Shown piece by piece: positions 5,560 through 63,674 of a stretch of DNA of 64,000 nt. Source of the stretch: Candidatus Bathyarchaeia archaeon (GTDB lineage Archaea > Thermoproteota > Bathyarchaeia > Bathyarchaeales > DTEX01); contig JAVZNR010000006.1 in NCBI GenBank assembly GCA_038882715.1, positions 1-64,000 of the forward strand. The letters are read 5' to 3'. A model generated the notes under the pieces. That model searched no databases and had not been told where the DNA came from. It saw only the letters and a program-made list of their open reading frames with translations. A program made the translations under genes and the position numbers. Numbering within the stretch: the first letter of the stretch is position 1; the number at the start of each line of letters is the position of its first letter.

Positions 5560-6750
5560 GTGGACATGGATAACCTGGTGAACATTGCTGAAAAACTCAT
5601 GTGGGAATTCGCCTATCAGACGGGGCTTATATCAGATCTGAAACCTAGGCGCTATCTATGGACCGATTCGTTCGCCGTATGTAATCTCATTGAGCTTCAC
5701 TATCGGAAAAAGGATGAGAAGTTTATGCGGATGGCGCTTAAACTTGTTGATCAAGTACACTTTGTGCTTGGAAGACACCGTGAAGGTGACTCTAAATCCG
5801 GCTGGATAAGCGGCTTAAGCGATGATGAGGGATGGAGGCATCCAACTGTAGGCGGCTTAAGGATAGGTAAACCTCTGCCGGAGCGAAAGCCGGATGAGCC
5901 GTTCGACGAAGTCTTGGAGTGGGAGCGTGACGGGCAATACTACCATTACCTAACAAAGTGGATGCATACGCTTAATGTCGTCGGCAAAGCCACGGGATGT
6001 TCCAACTATTATGTGTGGGCTGTTGAGCTCGCTAAAAGGGCGCATAGAGCGTTCGTCTATGAGGCGGCTGATGGGCGAAAACGCATCTACTGGAAGATGA
6101 GCGTAGATCTGTCATGGCCACTGGTTTCCTCTATGGGTCAGCTTGACCCGCTCGACGGGCTTATCACCTACATGGAGCTGCAAGCATCGGCAGGCAACTC
6201 GGTGGCGCCGAACCTCATCGAGGAGATTAGAGATATGGAGAACATATGCAGCGAGATGGTTTGGGTAACTGATGACCCGCTTGGCATTGGCGAGCTACTT
6301 ATATGCTCCTATAGACTTGCTGACTTGATTGCCAACGGGCATTCTAACCATCTAGATCTTTTAATAAACATTTTAAACGATTCCTTATTAAGCCTGGAAC
6401 TATATCTAGCCGGCAGATCAATGAAGCTGCCAGCTAACATGCGGCTAGCTTTCCGAGAGCTCGGCTTATCTATTGGTCTTAAAGCCGCCGTTAAACTCAG
6501 GGAACTGGTGGGAAGCAGCCAAAGGCTCTCCGAAAACATCGGTCTCGCCTCGGCCACAAGAGATTTATCAAGCTATGTCTGGCTAGCTGACAGGATAGAT
6601 GATTTCTGGCTTAATCCAAAAAACAGGGAAAACCAAACATGGTTAGAACACAAAGATATTAACGTGGTTATGTTGGCAACGAGCCTAATCCCAGACGCTT
6701 TTCTAGGATTGGTTGGAGATAAGCGAAAGCAGTCTTCTTTAACTGAATAG
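5560..6750 (+). CDS. Conserved-looking hypothetical protein, probable alpha/alpha-barrel
   Basis: A 396-residue soluble protein without signal peptide or membrane segments. It is rich in helices, Trp and His, with repeated patterns such as WDSF/WTDSF near the N-terminus, YYHYLTKWMHTLN and SWPLVSSMGQLDPLDGL, which resemble the inner helices of six-hairpin glycosidases and N-acylglucosamine epimerases. That similarity is by eye only. GTG at 5560 and ATG at 5566 are both possible starts. It follows the radical SAM gene by about 60 bases and belongs to a stretch of genes for small-molecule enzymes. No specific function is assigned. Confidence 0.6.
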   Translation: MDMDNLVNIAEKLMWEFAYQTGLISDLKPRRYLWTDSFAVCNLIELHYRKKDEKFMRMALKLVDQVHFVLGRHREGDSKSGWISGLSDDEGWRHPTVGGLRIGKPLPERKPDEPFDEVLEWERDGQYYHYLTKWMHTLNVVGKATGCSNYYVWAVELAKRAHRAFVYEAADGRKRIYWKMSVDLSWPLVSSMGQLDPLDGLITYMELQASAGNSVAPNLIEEIRDMENICSEMVWVTDDPLGIGELLICSYRLADLIANGHSNHLDLLINILNDSLLSLELYLAGRSMKLPANMRLAFRELGLSIGLKAAVKLRELVGSSQRLSENIGLASATRDLSSYVWLADRIDDFWLNPKNRENQTWLEHKDINVVMLATSLIPDAFLGLVGDKRKQSSLTE

Positions 6751-6860
6751 GCTAGGCGAGGCGCTAAAACACCATTAGCAGCCTGAAAAATAATTTTGAA
6801 AAAATAGTGGGGCCAGCATGGTCAGGTGGTAGTTTCGCTATATGAAGTCTCTAGTCTGAG

Positions 6861-7073
6861 TTAAACCTCGCTCTTTAATCCGCTTATCATCTCTAAGTAT
6901 TGCTTAAGTTTGCCGAATATTTCATTTGCCTTTATCTCTTCGGCGCTCTCCGGTAGCATAACCTGATATTTTCCCTGCCCAATGTCTCTGAGAATGAAGT
7001 ATTTTTTGCCAAATTCAAAATAGATGAAGTCTCTGCCGATCTCGATATCCCATTTCTTTGTTTCTTCCGACAT
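6861..7073 (-). CDS. Small hypothetical protein (70 aa)
   Basis: A 70-residue charged protein with a predicted beta-rich first half (DFIYFEFGKKYFILRDIG) and a helical C-terminus (KLKQYLEMISGL). I do not recognise the family. It starts with an ATG about 35 bases after the stop of the TIM-barrel isomerase on the same strand, which makes co-transcription plausible. The codon pattern and sensible amino-acid composition support that it is real. Confidence 0.5.
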   Translation of the reverse strand: MSEETKKWDIEIGRDFIYFEFGKKYFILRDIGQGKYQVMLPESAEEIKANEIFGKLKQYLEMISGLKSEV

Positions 7074-7107
7074 ACGGGTTCACAAAACTACTAAATATTA
7101 GCCATTA

Positions 7108-8085
7108 TTAAAGATTATTTTTCTTAAGACATGTTTTACAGTTTTCCAGAACTATTTTAAGCGCTCTAATATAGTTGTGTTCTCTCAGCTCTTCCAGTAC
7201 CCTATCCACACCAGCTTTTTGAAGCCCCTCAACAATTCCTCTTACATTTCTAATGCTCCGGCTTATAGCCTTAGCGGGGTCAACTCTAGAAGGATAAACG
7301 TCCATGAAAATCCATTCGCTGTATCCCACTTTAATCATCCAAGCCAATGATTCAATAAAATGCCAAAAGTTAATGGACGCCGGGATTAAATCCCAGTCCC
7401 AGTCTCTAAAATTATCGTTTAAATGCACGCTGAATAGTCGTTCTTCTTGAGCCGCTAAACATATTGCTTCAGCCGGATTTTCTCCGGCTAAAAGCGAGTG
7501 CCCAATATCTACAGTAACGCCTAGGTTTTCAGCCCCCACTTTCTCGCAAACCCAGAGGGCTCTGCCGATATCAGATATATAGATGTTCGCCCTAGGCTCC
7601 CTCCTCTTATACTCTAGAGATATCCTTACGTCGGATCGATATGAGCAAACCTCTTTCAGGCAGTTTATCAGCCAGCGCCAAGCTTTAGAGTAATCCTCCT
7701 GAAAAAGATAGTCATATCCGTCTCCCATTGGACACAAATTTACGAGTGAAACCCCCATTTTCTTAGAAGCATCCATGCAATCCTTAATGTGCTCTACGGC
7801 GAGCTCCCTTACTTTATGATTAGGAGAAGCTATCGAGCCAGTTAACCATTGCCGGTCTCTACTTAAATCAACCGTGAAATGCGAGAAGCCAACCCCATAT
7901 TTTTCCAGCAGATTTTTCAGCGGGGCTACATCCATTGAGAGGTAGTAAGTTACGCTAACCCCATCCAAACCCTCTATTTCTGACGCTACTTTAACCATTT
8001 CCTCTAGGCTAAGCCTTTCCCCATACTCGCAGAAGCGGTCTCTATGTAAGCCAAAGGCCCCTAAGGGAACAGAATACTTATACAT
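7108..8085 (-). CDS. Sugar phosphate isomerase/epimerase-like TIM-barrel protein
   Basis: About 325 residues of the xylose-isomerase-like TIM barrel (AP endonuclease 2) superfamily. Candidate metal ligands are spread as expected: Glu in SLEYKRREP, Asp and His in VTVDIGHSLL, and His in FSVHLNDN. Members isomerise or epimerise sugars and related polyols, or act as dehydratases. The start at ATG 8085 is preferred over TTG 8100 because GGTGGT sits about 7 bases before it. It is divergent from the nitrilase gene at 8153; their ~65-bp gap must hold both promoters. Confidence 0.8.
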   Translation of the reverse strand: MYKYSVPLGAFGLHRDRFCEYGERLSLEEMVKVASEIEGLDGVSVTYYLSMDVAPLKNLLEKYGVGFSHFTVDLSRDRQWLTGSIASPNHKVRELAVEHIKDCMDASKKMGVSLVNLCPMGDGYDYLFQEDYSKAWRWLINCLKEVCSYRSDVRISLEYKRREPRANIYISDIGRALWVCEKVGAENLGVTVDIGHSLLAGENPAEAICLAAQEERLFSVHLNDNFRDWDWDLIPASINFWHFIESLAWMIKVGYSEWIFMDVYPSRVDPAKAISRSIRNVRGIVEGLQKAGVDRVLEELREHNYIRALKIVLENCKTCLKKNNL

Positions 8086-53728: not shown

Positions 53729-54259
53729 ATGGGCATCACTAAGAACATTAAGAAGTGGATTCATGAAGAAAGGAAGAGAATTGAAGGCCTGCTAAAAGAA
53801 ACGCTGATAATTGTGGTTCTTCTTGGAGCTGGTGGAAAAGGAGTTGAGAAAAGAAGGGAAATAGCCAAAAAGTTAGAGGAAAACGGAGTAATTGCACTTA
53901 TACCTGAAGATGATTTCGCTCCAGATATTGCTCCAAGCCTAATAGAAGAAGCAGTTTTTAAAGAGGCTGACGTAGATTTAATTTTCATTAACGTTGAATC
54001 ATGGGGTTCAGCCACAGAGTTTGCTCAGTTTTATGATAAAGCGATTATCGCACCCAAACTCAGAATATTAACTCATTATAAGTATCATCCAATCTATGGG
54101 AGTTCTCATAGCTACTTGACAGACCTCTACCTATCATTCATGGCAAAACATGGGCACGTTTACGCTTATGGTGAAGAAGATAATTTTCCAGACCCGGAGA
54201 AAATAATCTTGGTTTTATCACTTCGTTACAAGTTCCTTAAAGCTTTGGGAAGGGTTTAG
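53729..54259 (+). CDS. Nucleoside deoxyribosyltransferase/TIR-like protein
   Basis: A 176-residue alpha/beta protein. TLIIVVLLGAGGKGVEKRREIAKKL opens the fold, GVIALIPEDDFAPDIAPSL follows, VDLIFINVESWGSATEFAQF places Glu97 at the position of the catalytic Glu of deoxyribosyltransferases and TIR NADases, and the C-terminus holds Tyr/His-rich helices. It would cleave or exchange an N-glycosidic bond if active. The location beside the pAgo cargo suggests a defence-related nucleotide enzyme, which is an inference. Start ATG 53729 lies ~33 bases after CTTAAATAG. Confidence 0.55.
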   Translation: MGITKNIKKWIHEERKRIEGLLKETLIIVVLLGAGGKGVEKRREIAKKLEENGVIALIPEDDFAPDIAPSLIEEAVFKEADVDLIFINVESWGSATEFAQFYDKAIIAPKLRILTHYKYHPIYGSSHSYLTDLYLSFMAKHGHVYAYGEEDNFPDPEKIILVLSLRYKFLKALGRV

Positions 54260-54651: not shown

Positions 54652-55650
54652 ATGAATTGTAGTGGCGATTCAATTATCTACAATGAAATGCCTTTAACAG
54701 AAGCTTTCATTCCAAGCAGGCTTTTGCATAGAGAAGGACAGCTGAGAGAGTTGGAGAGATGTCTTAAGCCTATTTTGAGAGGAAGTTTAATAGAAAATGT
54801 TTTTCTCGTTGGCCCTCCGGGTACTGGTAAAACAACTTTGGTGAAATGGGTTCTTGAAAGCTATTTCAAAGAGATTTCATGCTACATTAACTGCTGGAAG
54901 TATAGGAGCACGCATGAAGTCTTAAAGGAAGTTTTGCTTAGCTTTCAGATTCCAGTGCATGGGAGAGAGCCGACAGGCGAACTCATAGATAAAATTGAGA
55001 ATCTAGCTAAGAAAAAGAGGCTTATAATATGCTTAGATGAGGTTGATCAACTAGAAGACTTTGATGTTCTCTACATTCTTTCAAGGAACAGGTTTGGATT
55101 AATTCTTGCTTCAACAAGATACCATGCTCTAATAAATTTACCGTCGAGGATTAAGAGCAGCTTGGCGCTGACTGAAATAGAGTTTCCAGCATACAAGCCA
55201 GATGAGCTTTACGATATTTTAAAAGATAGGGTTCAGTTCTCCTTCAAGCCCAATTCAATAAGCAATGAATTAATTAGAATAATTTCTGTCATGGCTGAGG
55301 GAGACGCAAGAGTTGGGCTTGAAATCTTGAGAAGGGCGGGAAAGAAGGCTGAGGATAAAGGCTTAAGTAAAGTTACGATCGAAGAGGTTAAGCAGGCTGC
55401 AAAGGAAGCAAGAAGGCTGAAGGCTTCTTTCTTCCTCTCAAAGCTGAATGAGCATCAGAAGATAATTTACGAAATACTTGGAAAAAAGAAGAGAATGCCA
55501 TCAGGCCTACTTTACAGAGAATATTGCAAGATGGTTAAAAACCCTGTTGTTGACAGAGCCTACAGAAATTACATGAAGAAGATGGTTGATATGGGATTGG
55601 TAAAAGTTGAGGGATTTGGAAGATGGAAAGTTTATGAAATAATTAGCTAG
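54652..55650 (+). CDS. Orc1/Cdc6-like AAA+ ATPase
   Basis: A 332-residue ATPase: FIPSRLLHREGQLRELERCL is the Orc1/Cdc6 N-terminal motif, FLVGPPGTGKTTLVK Walker A, LIICLDEVDQL Walker B with intact Glu, SRNRFGLILAST sensor 1, and the lid region contains EGDARVGLEILRRAG with sensor 2 Arg. A C-terminal winged helix follows (SGLLYREYCKMVK, DRAYRNYMKKM). It may initiate replication of the element or act as an ATPase switch in the cargo block. It is convergent with the nuclease gene. Confidence 0.82.
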   Translation: MNCSGDSIIYNEMPLTEAFIPSRLLHREGQLRELERCLKPILRGSLIENVFLVGPPGTGKTTLVKWVLESYFKEISCYINCWKYRSTHEVLKEVLLSFQIPVHGREPTGELIDKIENLAKKKRLIICLDEVDQLEDFDVLYILSRNRFGLILASTRYHALINLPSRIKSSLALTEIEFPAYKPDELYDILKDRVQFSFKPNSISNELIRIISVMAEGDARVGLEILRRAGKKAEDKGLSKVTIEEVKQAAKEARRLKASFFLSKLNEHQKIIYEILGKKKRMPSGLLYREYCKMVKNPVVDRAYRNYMKKMVDMGLVKVEGFGRWKVYEIIS

Positions 55651-55772: not shown

Positions 55773-56717
55773 TTAACGAAGCATTTGGCTAACTTGCTTT
55801 ACCAAGTGGGTTGTCGAAGGGATATCTTTCAACGATATAACACGTAAAGTGTTAGTGGGTTTTAACTTTGTACCATCATAAGAAAGAATTATTTTGTACA
55901 TTTTCACAGAAGGATATTTTTCTTTTATCTTGAGAAGGAGATTCTCAGAGATGTTAAGAAAATCCTTAACATCATTATAAGTGGTTTCATTAAATTTACA
56001 TTCAATAGCTATTAAGGAGTTATTTATTAAACCAAGAACATCTATTTCTCCATTTTCTCTATCTCCCACACCTATACCGGCATACTCTATGCTTGTATAC
56101 ACACATTTTTCTTCTCTTTCCCCGATACCCATCCCGATGAGTTTTACACCATTCACCATCCTCATGATATGTGATGCATATATCTCTAACAAATGACCAT
56201 TAATTATTCCTTCCATGAGTTTTCCAGTAATCGATGCTAAGAAGAATTTAAAATCAAACTGCGACCCGCAACTACATTCATCATTTTCATCAAATCTATT
56301 TGTCAAAATTGTCCTTCCACATTCAGAACAAAATAACATGCATTCATTCTTTGGTTCTAAAAAGTTCTGGCTTAAAGCTGCTTTTAAAAATTCATTAATT
56401 CTCCTTATTTTATGATCGTCTGTTTCAAGCGCTTCATACTGTTCAAAAAAGGAGTATGCAAATTCTCTTAAGTAATGTGATCCTGAAACTGTTGCTAAAA
56501 TTTTTGATTTCAGTTTCGTGAAATCAAAATGAGGGGGGTCAACTATGACTAAAGGCTTTGGTCTTCCCTTCCAATAAAAGAGGATGTCCCATGCCTCTAT
56601 ATACTCAGATAAAAGTTTTATAAAAAGTTGAACTCTCTGGTCTAGTTCTAAAGTCGCCTTTCTTCTATCTATTTTTAGCTGAAGAGATTTGATTGTTTCT
56701 TCTATGTCTTCCTTCAT
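55773..56717 (-). CDS. PD-(D/E)XK nuclease with zinc ribbon, partner of the Argonaute
   Basis: A 314-residue protein. Residues 1-120 are helical and unassigned. A zinc ribbon follows (C130-x2-C133 and C148-x-C150). From ~160 comes a restriction-endonuclease fold: Glu178 in GHLLEIYASHI, Asp226 in GEIDVLGL and Glu239-x-Lys241 in IAIECKF, the standard active site, similar to the nuclease domain of Card1/Can2-like proteins. The ATG is 2 bases after the pAgo stop, so both come from one transcript. By analogy with long-B pAgo-associated nucleases it is probably the effector that cuts DNA (or RNA) on guide-dependent activation. Confidence 0.8.
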   Translation of the reverse strand: MKEDIEETIKSLQLKIDRRKATLELDQRVQLFIKLLSEYIEAWDILFYWKGRPKPLVIVDPPHFDFTKLKSKILATVSGSHYLREFAYSFFEQYEALETDDHKIRRINEFLKAALSQNFLEPKNECMLFCSECGRTILTNRFDENDECSCGSQFDFKFFLASITGKLMEGIINGHLLEIYASHIMRMVNGVKLIGMGIGEREEKCVYTSIEYAGIGVGDRENGEIDVLGLINNSLIAIECKFNETTYNDVKDFLNISENLLLKIKEKYPSVKMYKIILSYDGTKLKPTNTLRVISLKDIPSTTHLVKQVSQMLR

Positions 56718-56719
56718 CT

Positions 56720-59374
56720 TTATACCACCAAATAGGTAAAGTCTTGCGTAATTTCCACTTCTCTTGTGATCTCAGCTATGTTCTGAGAAATATTCAGTTC
56801 TGGAGGATACTTGCTTAAAGTTACTGGTGCTATCCAATTTAAGAAAGTCCTATCATAGTATTCCCTTACTATCTCTTTAATCTCTGCTTTTGATTCTAAC
56901 AACTCAACCCTTATATGCATTAGTTTAGCAGTTCCTTGTTTGATACCAATTTCTGGGTGACCTGAAACACAAATTAACGCTTCTTGGTCATTCTTAATGA
57001 TAACTAAACCAGAATCAACATTCAAGATAGTATTATTTTTGATTTTAAATAGTCTGTATATGTCTTCTTCGACCGTGATGAAATCTATCTGTTTATTTTT
57101 CCAATACTCGGTTTCCTTAATTTTATTTATGAACCCCTTAAGAACTATTATTTCATTTTGTTTAAGATGCCCCTTCTTATAAATAACCATTCTTTGAAAT
57201 GGAATTTCAGAAGTCTTATCGCGAACAAAATTGAATAACTTTTGTAACATCTCTTCCGAAAGATAATCTGTAGCTTTGCTGAGTGGTAGATGCTTTTGGT
57301 GAACAAATTTTCCTTGAGCATCGCATATAGCGAGAACGCCTACCGCTTTTCTAATTTCTGAATCTTTTACTTGCATTGAAAAGCCGATTCCACAGTAGAC
57401 TGTTTTAGCTGCCTTATATGATGGGTATCTTAAGATCCATGGGGGTTCATGTGGTTTAAGAGATTTTACATACAAATGCAGTGCAAATCCTCGTAGCAAC
57501 GGTAAATCTCTCTTCATTATTCTTTCGAATTTCCCAATTTTGATGTGTTGATCTGGGATTCTCCATGAATTGTTTATGATGCTTTTTATGATATAATATA
57601 TGAGATGTTGATAGTTTGGTTCCACGAATATAACAATTGATGTTGATGAATCTTGTTTAGGGATCGAAATGGGTTCAAGTTTACTTTTCATTTTTTCCTC
57701 AATTTTTGGATATCTCTCATTCAAAATTGTTGAGCTATAAGGTATTCGAACCCCCTCGGAAGCATACTCTAAAGTTCCAAAAATGCTGTCATAAGTTCTT
57801 TTCAATGCTATTAAAAATTCTTCACATTCTCTTTCAGAGATAAATGATGGACATATAATTTTAGGTATAAAAATTGCTTTATTTCCAGCGTAGCCCCCGT
57901 ACTTGAAAATAGCTCGTGTATCAGTGCTTTGTTGTCTTATATCCTTCTGCGAAAAGACCAAACGTGGAGGAAGTAACCTACAAGATGATTTGAAAATTTC
58001 TTTAATTTCATCTAGACTTGCCATATCTTCTTTAAATTCTATTTTACAAAATGGTGTTTCCACATATGGCATGCAATATGCTATAAACCATTCTCTTATT
58101 TTCTCATATCTTTCTTGCGGAGAAAGCGTAGGAGCCTCTTTCATCATAAATCCTATATTATGTTCAATCCACTTTTTCTCAAAACATAATGTCTCAAGTG
58201 GATAGGAAAAAGGCTTTCCTTGTTTGAACGATATTTCAGCCATACCTGTTTTTGTTGTTAAATCAAGATTATATTTGTTCTTCCAGTAATTTCTTATCTC
58301 GTCTGGTATTCGCTCTTTCAAATCGATTTTACTGATTTTTCCTTTTCGTTTTGTAGGCAATACGCAGATATCTCCAATAAGATGAAGTATTTCTTCGGGT
58401 GTTTCCACACCTAGAGATTCGATCCATTTATCCATGGTGAGGAATTGTACGTAAGTCGGATCTATCCAGAGTATGAATTTCGAATTATTGATCTTGTTAA
58501 CTTTAATATTGAATCCATAGAAAATTGTAAGAGGAAAATTCAGTTGACCAATAGTCACTTTTTTAACTTGCCGTCTTGAAAAATCAATAAATTTAGGTTG
58601 ATCTCTTATTTTGATCAACTTTTTAGAAATAAAATAATCAGATAATATTTTAGTTAACAAATACTCGAATTCACTTACTTCTAAATCAGAGATATTTATC
58701 CTCTTTGCTTCATCTACGAGATTAAAGTTGTTCTCTTTAATGAAACTTATTATGTCGTTCTCTGGCTTTCTATCAAGGAAGAATGTGACTCTATCATAGT
58801 GAAGGTTATAAATGCAATTATATCCACTATTAACAAGCTTCTCAACAAATTTTTTAATGAGCACATATTTTGCACTAAAATCTTGTTTAGTTACGTATTC
58901 GCTACTTGAAATAGAAAATATCCAGACACTTCCTTCTAGTGCCCCAATATAACCGTTAACTAGTATGCGCTCTGAGATTGCAATTTCTCTTCTTTTCTGG
59001 GAATATTCTAACGTATCTGCTAATTCATTCTCTAAAGATTTGATATATTCTTTTCGTTTATCATCTTCAATTAAATCACGTATTCGCATGGCTTGATATT
59101 TTATTTCATCAGCAAATTTTAAGGTAGGTAAAATATAATTAAGATGAACTCTCCCACTAGGTGTTAATTTAATCTCACCATTTTCAGCCATTAAAAAACC
59201 TTCTTCAATACCCTTCTTTACGAGAACTTCAAAACCAAGCTCATTTATAAGCTCTTTACGAATAATGCTGCTCAAGAGAATTCTAGCAGCATATTTCCAA
59301 ATTCCCCTAAGCTTACCATCAATAAGGCTAGTTATGTAAAGTAGATAATTCAAGTCTTCATTTTCATCTGACAT
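56720..59374 (-). CDS. Long prokaryotic Argonaute, catalytically inactive, with N-terminal winged-helix-like extension
   Basis: An 884-residue protein. Residues ~20-95 look like a winged helix and 95-135 like a helical linker. N/L1/PAZ-like sequence spans ~140-400, with FILWIDPTYVQFL at 300 and YPLETLCFEKKW at 391. The MID domain (~575-640) has YYIIKSIINNSWRIPDQ, the Tyr/Lys/Gln 5'-end pocket, then ALHLYVKSLKPHEPPW. PIWI runs 655-884: CGIGFS (Gly663 instead of Asp), IYKKGH (Lys instead of the RDG Asp) and IKQGTAKLMHIRV, LNWIAPVTLSKYP near the end. The tetrad is lost, so target slicing is not expected. It is first in an operon with the nuclease. Confidence 0.88.
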   Translation of the reverse strand: MSDENEDLNYLLYITSLIDGKLRGIWKYAARILLSSIIRKELINELGFEVLVKKGIEEGFLMAENGEIKLTPSGRVHLNYILPTLKFADEIKYQAMRIRDLIEDDKRKEYIKSLENELADTLEYSQKRREIAISERILVNGYIGALEGSVWIFSISSSEYVTKQDFSAKYVLIKKFVEKLVNSGYNCIYNLHYDRVTFFLDRKPENDIISFIKENNFNLVDEAKRINISDLEVSEFEYLLTKILSDYFISKKLIKIRDQPKFIDFSRRQVKKVTIGQLNFPLTIFYGFNIKVNKINNSKFILWIDPTYVQFLTMDKWIESLGVETPEEILHLIGDICVLPTKRKGKISKIDLKERIPDEIRNYWKNKYNLDLTTKTGMAEISFKQGKPFSYPLETLCFEKKWIEHNIGFMMKEAPTLSPQERYEKIREWFIAYCMPYVETPFCKIEFKEDMASLDEIKEIFKSSCRLLPPRLVFSQKDIRQQSTDTRAIFKYGGYAGNKAIFIPKIICPSFISERECEEFLIALKRTYDSIFGTLEYASEGVRIPYSSTILNERYPKIEEKMKSKLEPISIPKQDSSTSIVIFVEPNYQHLIYYIIKSIINNSWRIPDQHIKIGKFERIMKRDLPLLRGFALHLYVKSLKPHEPPWILRYPSYKAAKTVYCGIGFSMQVKDSEIRKAVGVLAICDAQGKFVHQKHLPLSKATDYLSEEMLQKLFNFVRDKTSEIPFQRMVIYKKGHLKQNEIIVLKGFINKIKETEYWKNKQIDFITVEEDIYRLFKIKNNTILNVDSGLVIIKNDQEALICVSGHPEIGIKQGTAKLMHIRVELLESKAEIKEIVREYYDRTFLNWIAPVTLSKYPPELNISQNIAEITREVEITQDFTYLVV

Positions 59375-59486: not shown

Positions 59487-60827
59487 TCAATGATTCTGTT
59501 TTCTGATCAGAAACTTTCCATTTCTTAATTCTCTTACTATTTCCCAGCCTTCCTCTACATGCTGAACAAGTTCTTTCTCTTCGATTATTTTACTTCTATA
59601 TGGCTTTTCATCGCAATCTGTATCTTCGTTCCTACGCTTGACAATCCTTGATTCTAAAGGTTTTATTCCCAACTCTTCCCTAATGATTCTTCCTAAGGCC
59701 TCCATTTCATCCAGCTCAGGCTGCTTTTCACGAACCTTCTGAATTTTCACCTCAATATTCTCTATTCCAAGAGTTTTCGCGAAAGCCTTTATCATCTCAA
59801 TCCTCGCTTCCTTCGTCATTTGGCCGGCTGGCGCCCAATTGAGCCTCATATATCTTTGAGCTAGCAATTCTACGTTAGCGTTATGGTATGGTGCCTTTGC
59901 TCCTGGAAGCCTATGTCCCATCAGGTATTCCTTGTCGTCTTCAGCCATCTGCCCCCCATCAACATATCCCATGTCAAGAACAGCTCTGAAGGTTTTCCTT
60001 AAAGAGTGGGCTCTCACATTCCTCCACCCCTTTATTCCAGCTTTTTTCGCAGCCTTCTTCACGATTCTAGTTAAATGCCATTGGCTTATAGGCTCCCTAA
60101 GCCTCTCATGTAAGCTTAAGCTTCTAGATTCAGATGGGAAGAGGAGCTCATCATCTTGGATTCCACCATACTTCTCCTTTCTCCAATTAATGTATTGTCT
60201 AAGGGCCTCTGAAGCCTCAGCACCAAAGAAAGTCCAGTAGTCAACATCCTCTTTACAAGCGTCTGGAAGAACATTCCTCAACTCACTTGTAACATGAACC
60301 CTTATGGGGATAACACCGCTTTCTATCTGATCCTTCAGCATGCCATAAGTCAAAGCCCTCAAAGCACTATTCCTAAGCCCAGACTGAAAGAGGCAGAGGA
60401 TTATCGCCCTCCACTTCAAGTCGCAAACAGAAGCCATCTTATACACTTCCTCTTTAGTCGGCACATACTCAGGCCTCTTCATGGCTTTGTAGGAAGCGTC
60501 GAGATCAAGCTCCTCAACCTTAAACTTGTTAGCCTTTAAAAAGCTCCGCAGGGCCTTCATAGCATTCAAAGCTGTACTCTTCTTACCCTCATCACTCCAC
60601 TTGTCACAGAAAGCCTGAACCATCTCAACAATCTCATCCTTAGGCAACTTAATGAAATCATCCGGAGAAAGATTCACAAACTGAACAAACCAGGCTAAAA
60701 GCTTAAAGTAAGCCTTCATCGTTGAGAGAGAGCCCTTACGCTGCAAGCTCCTTAACCAACGTTGAACGCTAACATACTCAGAATTCTTCCATTCTTCATC
60801 TAGCTTAAGTATCTCCTCGAAGAACAT
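59487..60827 (-). CDS. Tyrosine recombinase/integrase 2, element integrase next to attR
   Basis: A 446-residue recombinase. The N-terminal SAM-like domain contains VQRWLRSLQRKGSLSTMKAY; the catalytic domain contains FQSGLRNSALRAL (Arg I), RAHSLRKTF (His-x-x-Arg) and GHRLPGAKAPYHNAN followed by LAQRYMRLN, supplying the second His and the nucleophilic Tyr. A charged ~120-residue C-terminal extension follows. The start lies ~55 bp from attR in rnpB, the usual place for the integrase of such elements. Confidence 0.88.
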   Translation of the reverse strand: MFFEEILKLDEEWKNSEYVSVQRWLRSLQRKGSLSTMKAYFKLLAWFVQFVNLSPDDFIKLPKDEIVEMVQAFCDKWSDEGKKSTALNAMKALRSFLKANKFKVEELDLDASYKAMKRPEYVPTKEEVYKMASVCDLKWRAIILCLFQSGLRNSALRALTYGMLKDQIESGVIPIRVHVTSELRNVLPDACKEDVDYWTFFGAEASEALRQYINWRKEKYGGIQDDELLFPSESRSLSLHERLREPISQWHLTRIVKKAAKKAGIKGWRNVRAHSLRKTFRAVLDMGYVDGGQMAEDDKEYLMGHRLPGAKAPYHNANVELLAQRYMRLNWAPAGQMTKEARIEMIKAFAKTLGIENIEVKIQKVREKQPELDEMEALGRIIREELGIKPLESRIVKRRNEDTDCDEKPYRSKIIEEKELVQHVEEGWEIVRELRNGKFLIRKQNH

Positions 60828-61229: not shown

Positions 61230-63458
61230 CTAGTAAAAAACTACTTTATATCTTGTGGATTCGCGGATGAACTTTGTTATTGCGCCTGTTGACCCGCATA
61301 TGGGGCATTTTGACCGGTCTCCGCGTAAGGTTTTATGGCAGTTACTGCAGTATACGACTGCTGTGTCGAAAGCGTACAGCGGTATTTTGAAGCTTCCTAC
61401 AATTTTCTTTGACAGTGATAATAGTTCTTCTGGGGTATGCTCCTCCACCGGTATTTTAATGAGGTGGCTTCCAGAGAAGAATGGATGTAGCCGCTCCTCT
61501 ATGCTTAGGTATTTTTCTAGCGGGATGTCGGCGGCATACAGTAGACTGCTTAAGTCGCTGTAATACGGCTTGTCTTTAGTGCCGCTAACATTCACTTCAG
61601 CTAAACCATAATGCTCTACATCTAAAGCCGCCATCCTCCTTGAAGCCTCGCTATCCAATATTAGGGATAAAGCGCAGCGCATCTCTCTTCTCTTCGAGAA
61701 ATCGCTGGTAGTCTTCATGAGGTACGAGGACAATTCCTCGGCGAATTTTAGCGGTCCATCCCCCTCATAAATCGCGTTTCCAGTTGCCAGCTTAACGGTC
61801 TCATTCAACCCAGCTACGCTTATCAGAAAAAGCGAATTATTTAGCCTGCAATACGGGTCTCTTCTCCCGCCATAGTGTAGGAATGGCAGTAAACCCTCAT
61901 ATGCGCGTTGCCTTATCGTTAAATACTTTATCTCCAGCGCTCTAATAGCTTTTTCCAGAAAATCGTATATGTTGCCGAAGAAAACTTCCCTATTGCCCCT
62001 AGACTCGTAGAAGGCTCTTGGAAGATTAACTGTGACGCTGCCCACGCATCCAACCCGAATGGTGTCGAGCTCCCAATCCCTTCTCCAATCGTCTGAAAAC
62101 CTTTCCCCAGTAGCTAGGTAAGACGCCCTCTCCTCAACCTCAGAAAACATGTTTGCGAAGTATGGGAGACCGTAGGTCGCAAGCGAATGAGCATTATAGA
62201 GAATGCTTTCCCCCTCACTGGAGCTCAAGCTTTCAGGACGGATCTTAACTATTAGGCTGGGATTAAACATGACTTTAGACTTACATATTTCGCTTAAGGC
62301 CTCAATGATCAGCGACGCTAAAGTTAAGCTCTCCTCAGCGAAATCGCGATAGGCTTCAAGGACGTCTCCCCCCGGACCTATAGCCTTATATTCGGATAAG
62401 AATTCAGGCATACTCGTCTCGATGCCTATTGACACCCCTATCGGAACAGTTAAATTAACTGAGGAGATAAAGAGCGCAATTTCATCTTTAATCTCATCCC
62501 TCGATAAGCCTCTAATGAACGGCGCCAAGAAAACGTTGAAGTGCTCTAAGCCCTGCTCATACGATACTTCCGCGGATGCAAGCCTCAGAATGTTCGTCAC
62601 AAGATTTAGCGCTGCCCTTAAGCTTTTAGGCGGCTGAATAGGCGTGTAATCAGAGTACTGCTCCTTAAACACTAGGCCATACTTTAGAAAGAACCTTAAG
62701 TCATGCACGAAGCTATCCATCTTTAGAACCCAGCACGCGAGATTGTTTAAGTTTAATGCGCCTGAGAGATGCGCATCCGCAATATCCCTTGGAAGCGTGT
62801 TTAAAAGCGTGTATTCTTCAATAACGCGGTTACCGGCTGCTAAACGTATAGCTTCAACATTCGCAGACAGCGAACTCATAAACTTTATCAGTTGCGTCAC
62901 ATCGTAAACCGGAAGCCCCAGACGCGTCAGCTTATGCCTATATTCCTCTAGGCCGCGTTCTATGAGAAGCGCATTCACAAACTCCCTAATTAATGGGGCC
63001 GTCAAGTACTTTGTGTCGAGCTTAAGTAAACGCTCTTCAGCCTCCCTAGATATTTTTTGGGCTAAATCCGATGGGACCCCTGCCTCCCTAACCAATGACT
63101 CAGCGATTTTATTCCTGTCGAAAGGTTCAATTGCCAAACGTGATGTTCTTACAAGCATCCTTCTCCTAGAGGCTCTCTCCTCAAGCCGGCTTGCGAAATC
63201 AACTAGAGACTTACCTATATCGGTTAACACGTATTTTTTCGATTCCACATCAGGCTCTATGAGATCCATACTTAAAAGAACCTTAAGATGATAGGCAAAC
63301 CTACCAGCATCCTTGGTTGGGCTCAGCTTTAAAAGCTTCATGATCTCCGTGTAGGATAGGGGGCCCCTATCAAACAGCAATTTAAGTATGTTTAATCTTA
63401 GACTTGACGATACAGCCTTTAGGACTCTAGTGCCGGTTCTTTTACTTGATGGAGGCAA
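61230..63458 (-). CDS. Winged helix - ATP cone - NrdD-like protein without reductase residues
   Basis: A 742-residue fusion. Residues ~10-95 are an ArsR-like winged helix (LRLNILKLLFDRGPLSYTEI, GRFAYHLKVLLSMDLIEP). Residues ~100-185 are an ATP cone (LAIEPFDRNKIAESLVREAG). The rest is a class III ribonucleotide reductase fold: GSVTVNLPRAFY, SVAGLNETVKLATG, and a C-terminal zinc site C704, C707, C718, C721. After the zinc site the RVxGY glycyl-radical segment is missing (sequence ends TRYKVVFY), and the CCRL-type thiyl region reads WRRDWEL. It is therefore probably a dNTP-sensing regulator. A 17-bp palindrome lies 26 bases upstream of the start. Confidence 0.75.
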   Translation of the reverse strand: MPPSSKRTGTRVLKAVSSSLRLNILKLLFDRGPLSYTEIMKLLKLSPTKDAGRFAYHLKVLLSMDLIEPDVESKKYVLTDIGKSLVDFASRLEERASRRRMLVRTSRLAIEPFDRNKIAESLVREAGVPSDLAQKISREAEERLLKLDTKYLTAPLIREFVNALLIERGLEEYRHKLTRLGLPVYDVTQLIKFMSSLSANVEAIRLAAGNRVIEEYTLLNTLPRDIADAHLSGALNLNNLACWVLKMDSFVHDLRFFLKYGLVFKEQYSDYTPIQPPKSLRAALNLVTNILRLASAEVSYEQGLEHFNVFLAPFIRGLSRDEIKDEIALFISSVNLTVPIGVSIGIETSMPEFLSEYKAIGPGGDVLEAYRDFAEESLTLASLIIEALSEICKSKVMFNPSLIVKIRPESLSSSEGESILYNAHSLATYGLPYFANMFSEVEERASYLATGERFSDDWRRDWELDTIRVGCVGSVTVNLPRAFYESRGNREVFFGNIYDFLEKAIRALEIKYLTIRQRAYEGLLPFLHYGGRRDPYCRLNNSLFLISVAGLNETVKLATGNAIYEGDGPLKFAEELSSYLMKTTSDFSKRREMRCALSLILDSEASRRMAALDVEHYGLAEVNVSGTKDKPYYSDLSSLLYAADIPLEKYLSIEERLHPFFSGSHLIKIPVEEHTPEELLSLSKKIVGSFKIPLYAFDTAVVYCSNCHKTLRGDRSKCPICGSTGAITKFIRESTRYKVVFY

Positions 63459-63483: not shown

Positions 63484-63500
63484 TTAAATCTCAGATTTAA
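63484..63500. promoter_or_regulatory. Palindromic operator candidate upstream of the NrdD-like gene
   Basis: TTAAATCT-C-AGATTTAA is a perfect palindrome with 8-bp arms, centred ~34 bases before the start codon at 63458 and overlapping the TATA-box position. The downstream gene encodes a winged helix, so autoregulation is plausible. Confidence 0.5.
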
Positions 63501-63674
63501 AACTTAATCTCTAAGCGAAATAATTCTCGATTCTTTTTGCTCCCGATCGCTTCTATGGCTTCTCAACACGCTTCTCAATATGCCTAGGAGTTTAGGTGTA
63601 AGGACTGGTTAAAAGCCTTTATTTTAGAAAAACCTCTATCAGAGCTGATTAAAACTTAGGTAGAGTGACGTGTA

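Follow-up and report, generated by a model that had tools for sequence, protein, structure and literature searches.

A winged helix joined to a catalytically dead class III ribonucleotide reductase in archaea, a likely nucleotide-responsive regulator of reductase genes

The stretch of DNA examined here (the window) comprises 64,000 nucleotides, positions 1 to 64,000 of contig JAVZNR010000006.1 from a Candidatus Bathyarchaeia archaeon. On its minus strand at 61230–63458 lies an open reading frame that starts with TTG and encodes 742 amino acids. It is a real gene and not a chance frame, because 58 of the 61 genomes examined in its order, its own included, carry an ortholog. Among these 61 genomes no copy was found in G010, G012 and G053, and G009 yielded only a fragment of 84 residues. 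We use the label W for the clade of this protein, which combines a winged helix, an ATP-cone, a catalytically dead fold of the class III ribonucleotide reductase (RNR) NrdD and a zinc ribbon. A TATA-like sequence, TTTTAAAT, is present upstream of the gene on the same strand at 63495–63502, as read by eye only.

All features of the gene described below are on the minus strand. The winged helix domain occupies residues 12–87 (63198–63425) and scored above the Pfam cut-offs for both DUF7347 (28.6 bits, cut-off 27.6) and HTH_5 (24.4 bits, cut-off 22), with the recognition helix at approximately residues 50–61 (DAGRFAYHLKxL). It is followed by the ATP-cone at residues 102–173 (62940–63155; PF03477, 26.6 bits, cut-off 25.8) and by the NrdD-like domain at residues 198–727 (61278–62867), which is supported by the Pfam NRDD model at 193.5 bits and by a match to the class III RNR fold. 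The NCBIfam model scored W as NrdD at 192 bits, far below the TIGR02487 equivalog cut-off of 326. Profile–profile comparison by hhalign showed W to be homologous to NrdD (PF13597, TIGR02487) across 657 aligned columns. An AlphaFold model of W, built from 50 orthologs, had a mean pLDDT of 86.4, and its top structural matches were solved class III NrdDs, with 8p2s_B found by VIA at a Z of 35.6 and an rmsd of 2.5 Å over 526 residues. The VIA list was filled by the barrel, and the winged helix and most of the ATP-cone gave no informative rows. The model of a W protein from family f15 was of lower confidence (mean pLDDT 78.5) and still matched class III reductases (8p2s_A, Z 28.3, 3.0 Å over 430 residues).

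The part of the window next to the W gene contains several other genes of note. A prokaryotic Argonaute gene at 56720–59374 (PADLOC pAgo, E 4e-36) has beside it a PD-(D/E)XK/CARF-like nuclease candidate at 55773–56717, the latter on a weak match. A tyrosine integrase is encoded at 59487–60827 and a Cdc6/Orc protein at 54652–55650. The Argonaute, nuclease candidate, integrase and Cdc6/Orc genes fall within a low-GC stretch at about 42–60 kb (GC 0.34–0.41), the end of which is close to the W gene. This stretch looks like an integrated element with defence genes. The same stretch encodes a 176-residue protein at 53729–54259 that PADLOC matched weakly to NDT_II-A (E 3e-8), a name that we take to mean nucleoside deoxyribosyltransferase.

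The catalytic residues of a class III reductase are missing from W. A segment at residues 441–468 (62055–62138) stands in place of the thiyl-Cys loop in alignments against 21–32 reductases. This loop has a Cys-Cys pair in 27 of 27 reductases, whereas the window protein has no Cys at all between residues 434 and 470. The comparison across the clade was based on 153 distinct W proteins, which remained from 201 after removal of repeats sharing the same 300-residue core; W proteins under 540 residues were left out. Of the 153, 141 have Gly in the first thiyl Cys column. The second column is variable, with Cys in 24 of the proteins but not in that of the window. In the profile–profile alignment, Ala-Thr occupies the two columns in the window protein. 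The register of the loop differs by one to two residues among alignments, and the window protein lacks Cys in every one of them. Similarly, 21 of 22 f15 rows (alignment A3) contain no Cys in the 45 residues preceding NLPR.

The glycyl radical site is absent as well. The RxxGY motif occurs in 25 of 27 reductases and in none of the 153 W proteins, the two exceptions among the reductases being a truncated protein, B_L241, and B_L244, in which the site reads RVTGFF. In the window protein, a short C-terminal tail (residues 726–742 and the stop codon, 61230–61283) replaces the glycyl-radical loop. The tail after the last CxxC has a median length of 15 residues in W as compared to 37–71 in 26 of 27 reductases; the remaining one, a cut-off protein, has 11. 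The zinc ribbon, on the other hand, is retained. Its four cysteines (C704, C707, C718 and C721; 61296–61349) are invariant in the alignment of 50 orthologs, and two CxxC motifs are found within the final 120 residues of 141 of the 153 W proteins. An earlier sequence-only reading of this gene had claimed that the C-terminal zinc site is kept, that RVxGY is absent and that the CCRL-like thiyl region is replaced, and all three claims held. Its further claim of an N-terminal DNA-binding domain with an ATP-cone held as far as the Pfam domains are concerned; DNA binding itself is inferred. As a separate observation, the B-type NrdD beside W in genome G118 (L241, 7889–9931) lacks the C-terminal radical tail, which may reflect a truncation, a frameshift or a second dead copy.

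We searched the genome of the window (G000) for other reductases. A second PF13597 protein scored fully, at 681 bits, and is a canonical NrdD with the MCCRL and RVVGYL motifs and a strong ATP-cone (92 bits). Its gene is on a contig other than that of W and is followed on the same strand, nine bases downstream, by a radical-SAM NrdG-like gene. No radical-SAM activase was seen near W among the open reading frames at 54–64 kb of the window, which were read by eye. A PF02867 search also revealed a class II NrdJ with an ATP-cone (C9:7630–9027). Since G000 has an intact NrdD with its NrdG-like partner as well as NrdJ, W is not needed for ribonucleotide reduction there. The sequence-only reading would have been refuted by a Cys and a Gly at the catalytic positions or by the absence of any other reductase from the genome, and neither was the case for the window protein and its genome. 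Two side observations were made in these searches. PF00590 (tetrapyrrole methylases, diphthine synthase) found no match in G000, which is 95% complete, despite its B12-dependent NrdJ, and 14 of 14 control genomes gave a match. Some NrdD proteins lie within long open frames, namely 2826 residues in G073 (C7:309471–317543), where the NRDD matches are split in pieces, 1018 residues in L101 and 1084 residues in L102; these long frames likely contain inteins.

The nucleotide site of the ATP-cone was compared with that of NrdR, the bacterial RNR repressor. In NrdR, the inner nucleotide is contacted by K50, R51 and E56 and the outer one by K62 (PMC9110341). By motif spacing, we map these positions to Thr105, Ser106, Glu111 and Lys117 in the window protein. 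Across the clade, the NrdR Lys-Arg pair is replaced, as 137 of 153 W proteins have Thr in its first column and 148 have Ser in its second, whereas the NrdDs of the same type as the window genome's own have Lys and Arg in 9 of 9. The Glu is retained in 148 of 153 and a Lys or Arg at the last position in 150 of 153. The loss of the Lys-Arg pair is no proof of a dead cone because active B-type and F-type reductases are likewise without it. With Thr-Ser in place of this pair, however, W may differ from NrdR in its ligand and in how the ligand is bound.

W is widespread in its phylum. Among 200 sampled phylum genomes, at least 112 gave a W-type match. These matches comprise 57 of near full length, 3 partial ones cut before the winged helix and 53 to the N-terminal part only; the classes overlap, as one genome has both kinds of match. 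The 80 named W loci come from Candidatus Bathyarchaeota/Bathyarchaeia, Hecatellales, Bathyarchaeum, Bathycorpusculum, one "Crenarchaeota archaeon" and one "uncultured archaeon". Family f15 is a family of ammonia oxidisers, since archaeal AmoA was present in 7 of the 7 genomes tested. In a 57-protein tree, a branch with 100/100 support set the 30 W sequences apart from the remaining proteins, showing that W is a single clade with one old origin. A viral origin or spread was rejected; a profile search with the W alignment found no relative among the viral contigs searched.

The clade is under purifying selection. The dN/dS of W was 0.016–0.17 in 12 gene pairs. For the window gene and its G004 ortholog it was 0.058, a rough estimate as this is the most distant pair, with a dS of 2.28. 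Columns identical in at least 90% of sequences make up 11 of 12 in the recognition-helix region and 39 of 81 in the ATP-cone. For the reductase fold, counted in two parts, the values are 34 of 148 and, in the barrel, 47 of 369. The most conserved parts of W are thus the recognition helix and the ATP-cone, that is, its DNA-reading and nucleotide domains. The C-terminal half is shortened in families f21, f25 and f37.

We examined the genes downstream of W at the named loci. After exclusion of 20 loci with less than 1.5 kb of downstream sequence, 60 of the 80 remained, and in 13 of these an RNR gene on the strand of W is among the next three genes 3′ of it, namely 6 F-type NrdDs, 4 B-type NrdDs, 2 NrdJs and 1 C-type NrdD. 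The other 47 have none. A further set of 66 fetched loci had been picked in part for a tandem already seen and was not used as a rate. A B-type NrdD follows W directly on the same strand in L033–L043 without L040, and in L241. A glutaredoxin-like gene and then an F-type NrdD follow in L045–L048, L051, L061 and L066, and the intervening gene matched PF00462 in the one case tested (L048); in L044 and L050 the gene picker placed an opposite-strand open reading frame between W and the F-type NrdD. A C-type NrdD follows W in L052 and a class II NrdJ in L222–L225 and L251. W is therefore linked, depending on the lineage, to RNRs of different kinds, either one of three NrdD types or NrdJ. In L052 (genome G044, 5948–8056), the C-type nrdD sits behind W and an apparent glutaredoxin remnant, in the slot held by an F-type nrdD in sister genomes, and it still has its promoter element upstream. 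This arrangement looks like a swap of the reductase with the regulator unchanged.

In the ammonia-oxidising family f15, W precedes NrdJ in 28 of 29 genomes, with match starts 3.1–3.9 kb apart, and the 29th has the two on split contigs. The gap between W and nrdJ, read directly in 24 of these genomes, measures 98–435 bp. NrdD (PF13597) was absent from all 29, where the search returned just W and three weak matches of about 60 residues. The possibility that W is confined to organisms with class III reductases was rejected, as genomes with only class II retain it. The window gene itself has no RNR neighbour, and none of the W genes of f21, f25 and f37 was seen to adjoin an RNR among the fetched loci. 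In f8, W is convergent with an aspartate carbamoyltransferase-like gene and NrdR adjoins nrdD; such a convergent carbamoyltransferase gene adjoins W throughout f8 and also in further families. The name pyrB was assigned to this gene from its sequence by eye, and Pfam supports only the aspartate/ornithine carbamoyltransferase family.

The promoters of the reductase genes were analyzed for shared elements. A conserved stretch lies 5′ of the C-type nrdD in f1, and its G000 version, TTTTTTGATAAATAAATTTAAGTTTCTGTA, starts 111 bases before the start codon. With up to 3 mismatches, it had a single site in the G000 genome, that of its own nrdD. A wider exact pattern found sites solely in G006 and G010 among 101 genomes of the class, one in each and both where the C-type nrdD is placed; this pattern is genus-bound because of the 3-mismatch limit. 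A matrix was then built from 14 C-type nrdD promoters and compared against 728 other upstream regions, the null excluding the training rows and any row that had a training element in common with a divergently transcribed gene (score of at least 25). The 11 upstream regions of B-type nrdD (p = 8e-6) and the 7 F cassettes (p = 3e-5) scored above the 728 others. The evidence for NrdJ is thin (n = 5, p = 0.005), with two of the five regions scoring above 8. All B-type and most F matches are in reverse orientation. Since the promoter groups contain related genomes and the DNA is AT-rich, these p values overstate the support. In the other NrdJ upstream regions, that of G000 included, no element was seen in a reading by eye only.

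Short words were counted over five promoter groups. The top 8-mer was TCTAAAAA, and none of 60 shuffles reached as high. It is present in 6 of 13 C-type, 6 of 9 B-type and 3 of 8 F-type promoters, in 11 of 24 f15 W promoters and in 4 of 24 f15 NrdJ promoters, as compared to 16 of 728 control upstream regions and 9 of 135 AT-rich ones. The 7-mer TCTAAAA did not exceed all shuffles when set against the AT-rich control, its value of 8.06 being below the shuffled maximum of 8.14. In f15, GATC occurs 68 times in the 120 bases upstream of 24 W genes against a shuffle mean of 12.1, and 73 times in 24 W–nrdJ gaps against a mean of 20.4. At four f15 loci, the promoters of W and nrdJ contain 12.8 GATC per kb and the other intergenic DNA 1.7 per kb. 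One conserved palindrome at all promoters was not found; what recurs is TCTAAAA(A), with TGATC arrays in f15 in addition. The promoter of the window gene shows no clear element and only one TCTAAAA at −170, and autoregulation of W in the window was rejected for want of a convincing promoter element. The elements shared among RNR promoters may be the operators of W, for which there are no binding data, and another regulator might use them.

The architecture of W was compared with those of known systems. Both NrdR (TIGR00244) and W have an ATP-cone and a DNA-binding domain, their genes are often near those of RNRs, and both are presumed to control RNR transcription. NrdR, however, consists of a zinc ribbon followed by an ATP-cone in about 150 residues (PMC9110341), whereas in W the cone is preceded by a winged helix and followed by a whole NrdD fold, the zinc ribbon is at the far C-terminus, and the Lys-Arg pair is missing from the cone. 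TIGR00244 was not among the NCBIfam matches of W at E values up to 1, and the idea that W is NrdR under another name was rejected on this ground and on architecture. True NrdR scored over the TIGR00244 cut-off in 13 of 200 phylum genomes, every one of them from f8, and in all 13 sampled f8 genomes; a replacement of NrdR by W everywhere was rejected, as f8 carries both. W shares with NrdD the homologous RNR/glycyl-radical barrel fold and the C-terminal zinc site, but it has no thiyl Cys, no glycyl radical loop and no adjoining NrdG, and it carries an extra winged helix. Regulators of the ArsR type (HTH_5, HTH_20, DUF7347) resemble W in the winged helix at residues 12–87. The effector part of ArsR-type regulators is a metal site; that of W is a dead RNR with an ATP-cone. 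The inactive RNR large-subunit homologues of cytomegaloviruses, M45 and UL45, are like W in having an RNR fold that has lost catalysis and taken a regulatory role. M45 and UL45 are viral, of class I type, act on host signalling and are not known to have a DNA-binding domain. In the best reading, W is analogous to NrdR in logic; it is neither a member of NrdR nor a functional NrdD. The earlier claim of an NrdR-like logic in a different protein is thus supported.

We consider it likely that W is a nucleotide-responsive transcriptional regulator of RNR genes. Its architecture, the loss of catalytic residues, a single origin, purifying selection, the linkage to RNRs of several classes and the shared promoter elements are shown; DNA binding, the ligand, an oligomer switch and the sign of control are inferred. 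The claim that a reductase was recycled as a transcriptional sensor of dNTPs is thus supported, with added support from the linkage to RNRs of unrelated classes, the common promoter elements, purifying selection and the conservation of the recognition helix and ATP-cone, and its DNA-binding and dNTP-sensing parts are still inference. We propose that an ArsR-like winged helix was fused to a class III reductase and that radical chemistry was lost later. A dimer or higher oligomer of W would bind AT-rich operators of RNR promoters through the winged helix, and the ATP-cone, perhaps along with the barrel's former specificity or substrate pocket, would read nucleotide levels. The nucleotide state would alter the oligomer such that RNR transcription tracks the demand for dNTPs, most likely by repression when dNTPs are plentiful. 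The NrdD of P. copri, which changes its oligomer with ATP or dATP on the cone (PMC11226230), is a precedent for the proposed switch.

There are points against this proposal. It must contend with the 47 of 60 named loci that are unlinked, with the window gene, which has no RNR neighbour either, and with f8, where W faces the carbamoyltransferase gene and coexists with NrdR. Also against it are the loss of the Lys-Arg pair, the lack of a clear element in the promoter of the window gene and the thin evidence from NrdJ promoters. A bolder reading is that W forms a phylum-wide family in which the entire dead RNR, barrel and cone, senses nucleotide balance, including dNTPs at the specificity site, and drives the winged helix on and off the promoters of RNRs of any class, ammonia-oxidising archaea included. 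We would give this version slightly less than even odds of being right.

Other explanations were considered. W could be a pseudoenzyme subunit that forms a heterodimer with an active NrdD and tunes its activity or specificity, the winged helix serving for contact only. The shared fold favors this idea, as does the direct tandem of W in several families with an NrdD of type B, F or C. We nevertheless regard it as unlikely: all 29 genomes of the AmoA family f15 keep W without any NrdD, 28 of them beside a class II NrdJ, so a class III pseudo-subunit would lack a partner there. Moreover, no stretch of W is better conserved than the recognition helix, and nrdD is located away from W in the window genome and in f8. 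It is similarly improbable that W binds DNA and chiefly regulates genes other than those of RNRs, for example genes of pyrimidine synthesis or replication, with RNRs as part of a wider regulon. The convergent carbamoyltransferase-like gene in f8 and other families and the presence of W together with NrdR in 13 f8 genomes are in its favor, but convergent genes have no common promoter and the linkage of W to four kinds of RNR would be hard to explain otherwise.

Two further possibilities have even less to recommend them. That W is an active radical enzyme of other chemistry, borrowing its glycyl radical from a separate spare-part protein, finds some support in the retained barrel and zinc ribbon and in the second-column Cys of a minority of W proteins. 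It is very unlikely, as there is no conserved loop Cys, with none in the window protein and none before NLPR in the f15 rows save one, and class II-only genomes retain W. A decaying or misassembled fusion without function could account for the shortened C-terminal half in f21, f25 and f37, but it is all but excluded by the low dN/dS in all 12 pairs, the 57 open frames of near full length, the single old origin and the occurrence in 58 of 61 genomes of the order.

The preferred reading remains that of a regulator of RNR genes. The literature searched, which largely did not cover subscription papers, contained no published description of a W-like protein, and it held no account of how archaea without NrdR fit RNR expression to dNTP demand. 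W is one candidate for that control, both in Bathyarchaeia, which are uncultured, and in ammonia-oxidising archaea, of which some are in culture. If this is true, an essential enzyme would have become the regulator of its own replacement, with the class of the downstream reductase varying while the dead reductase persists.
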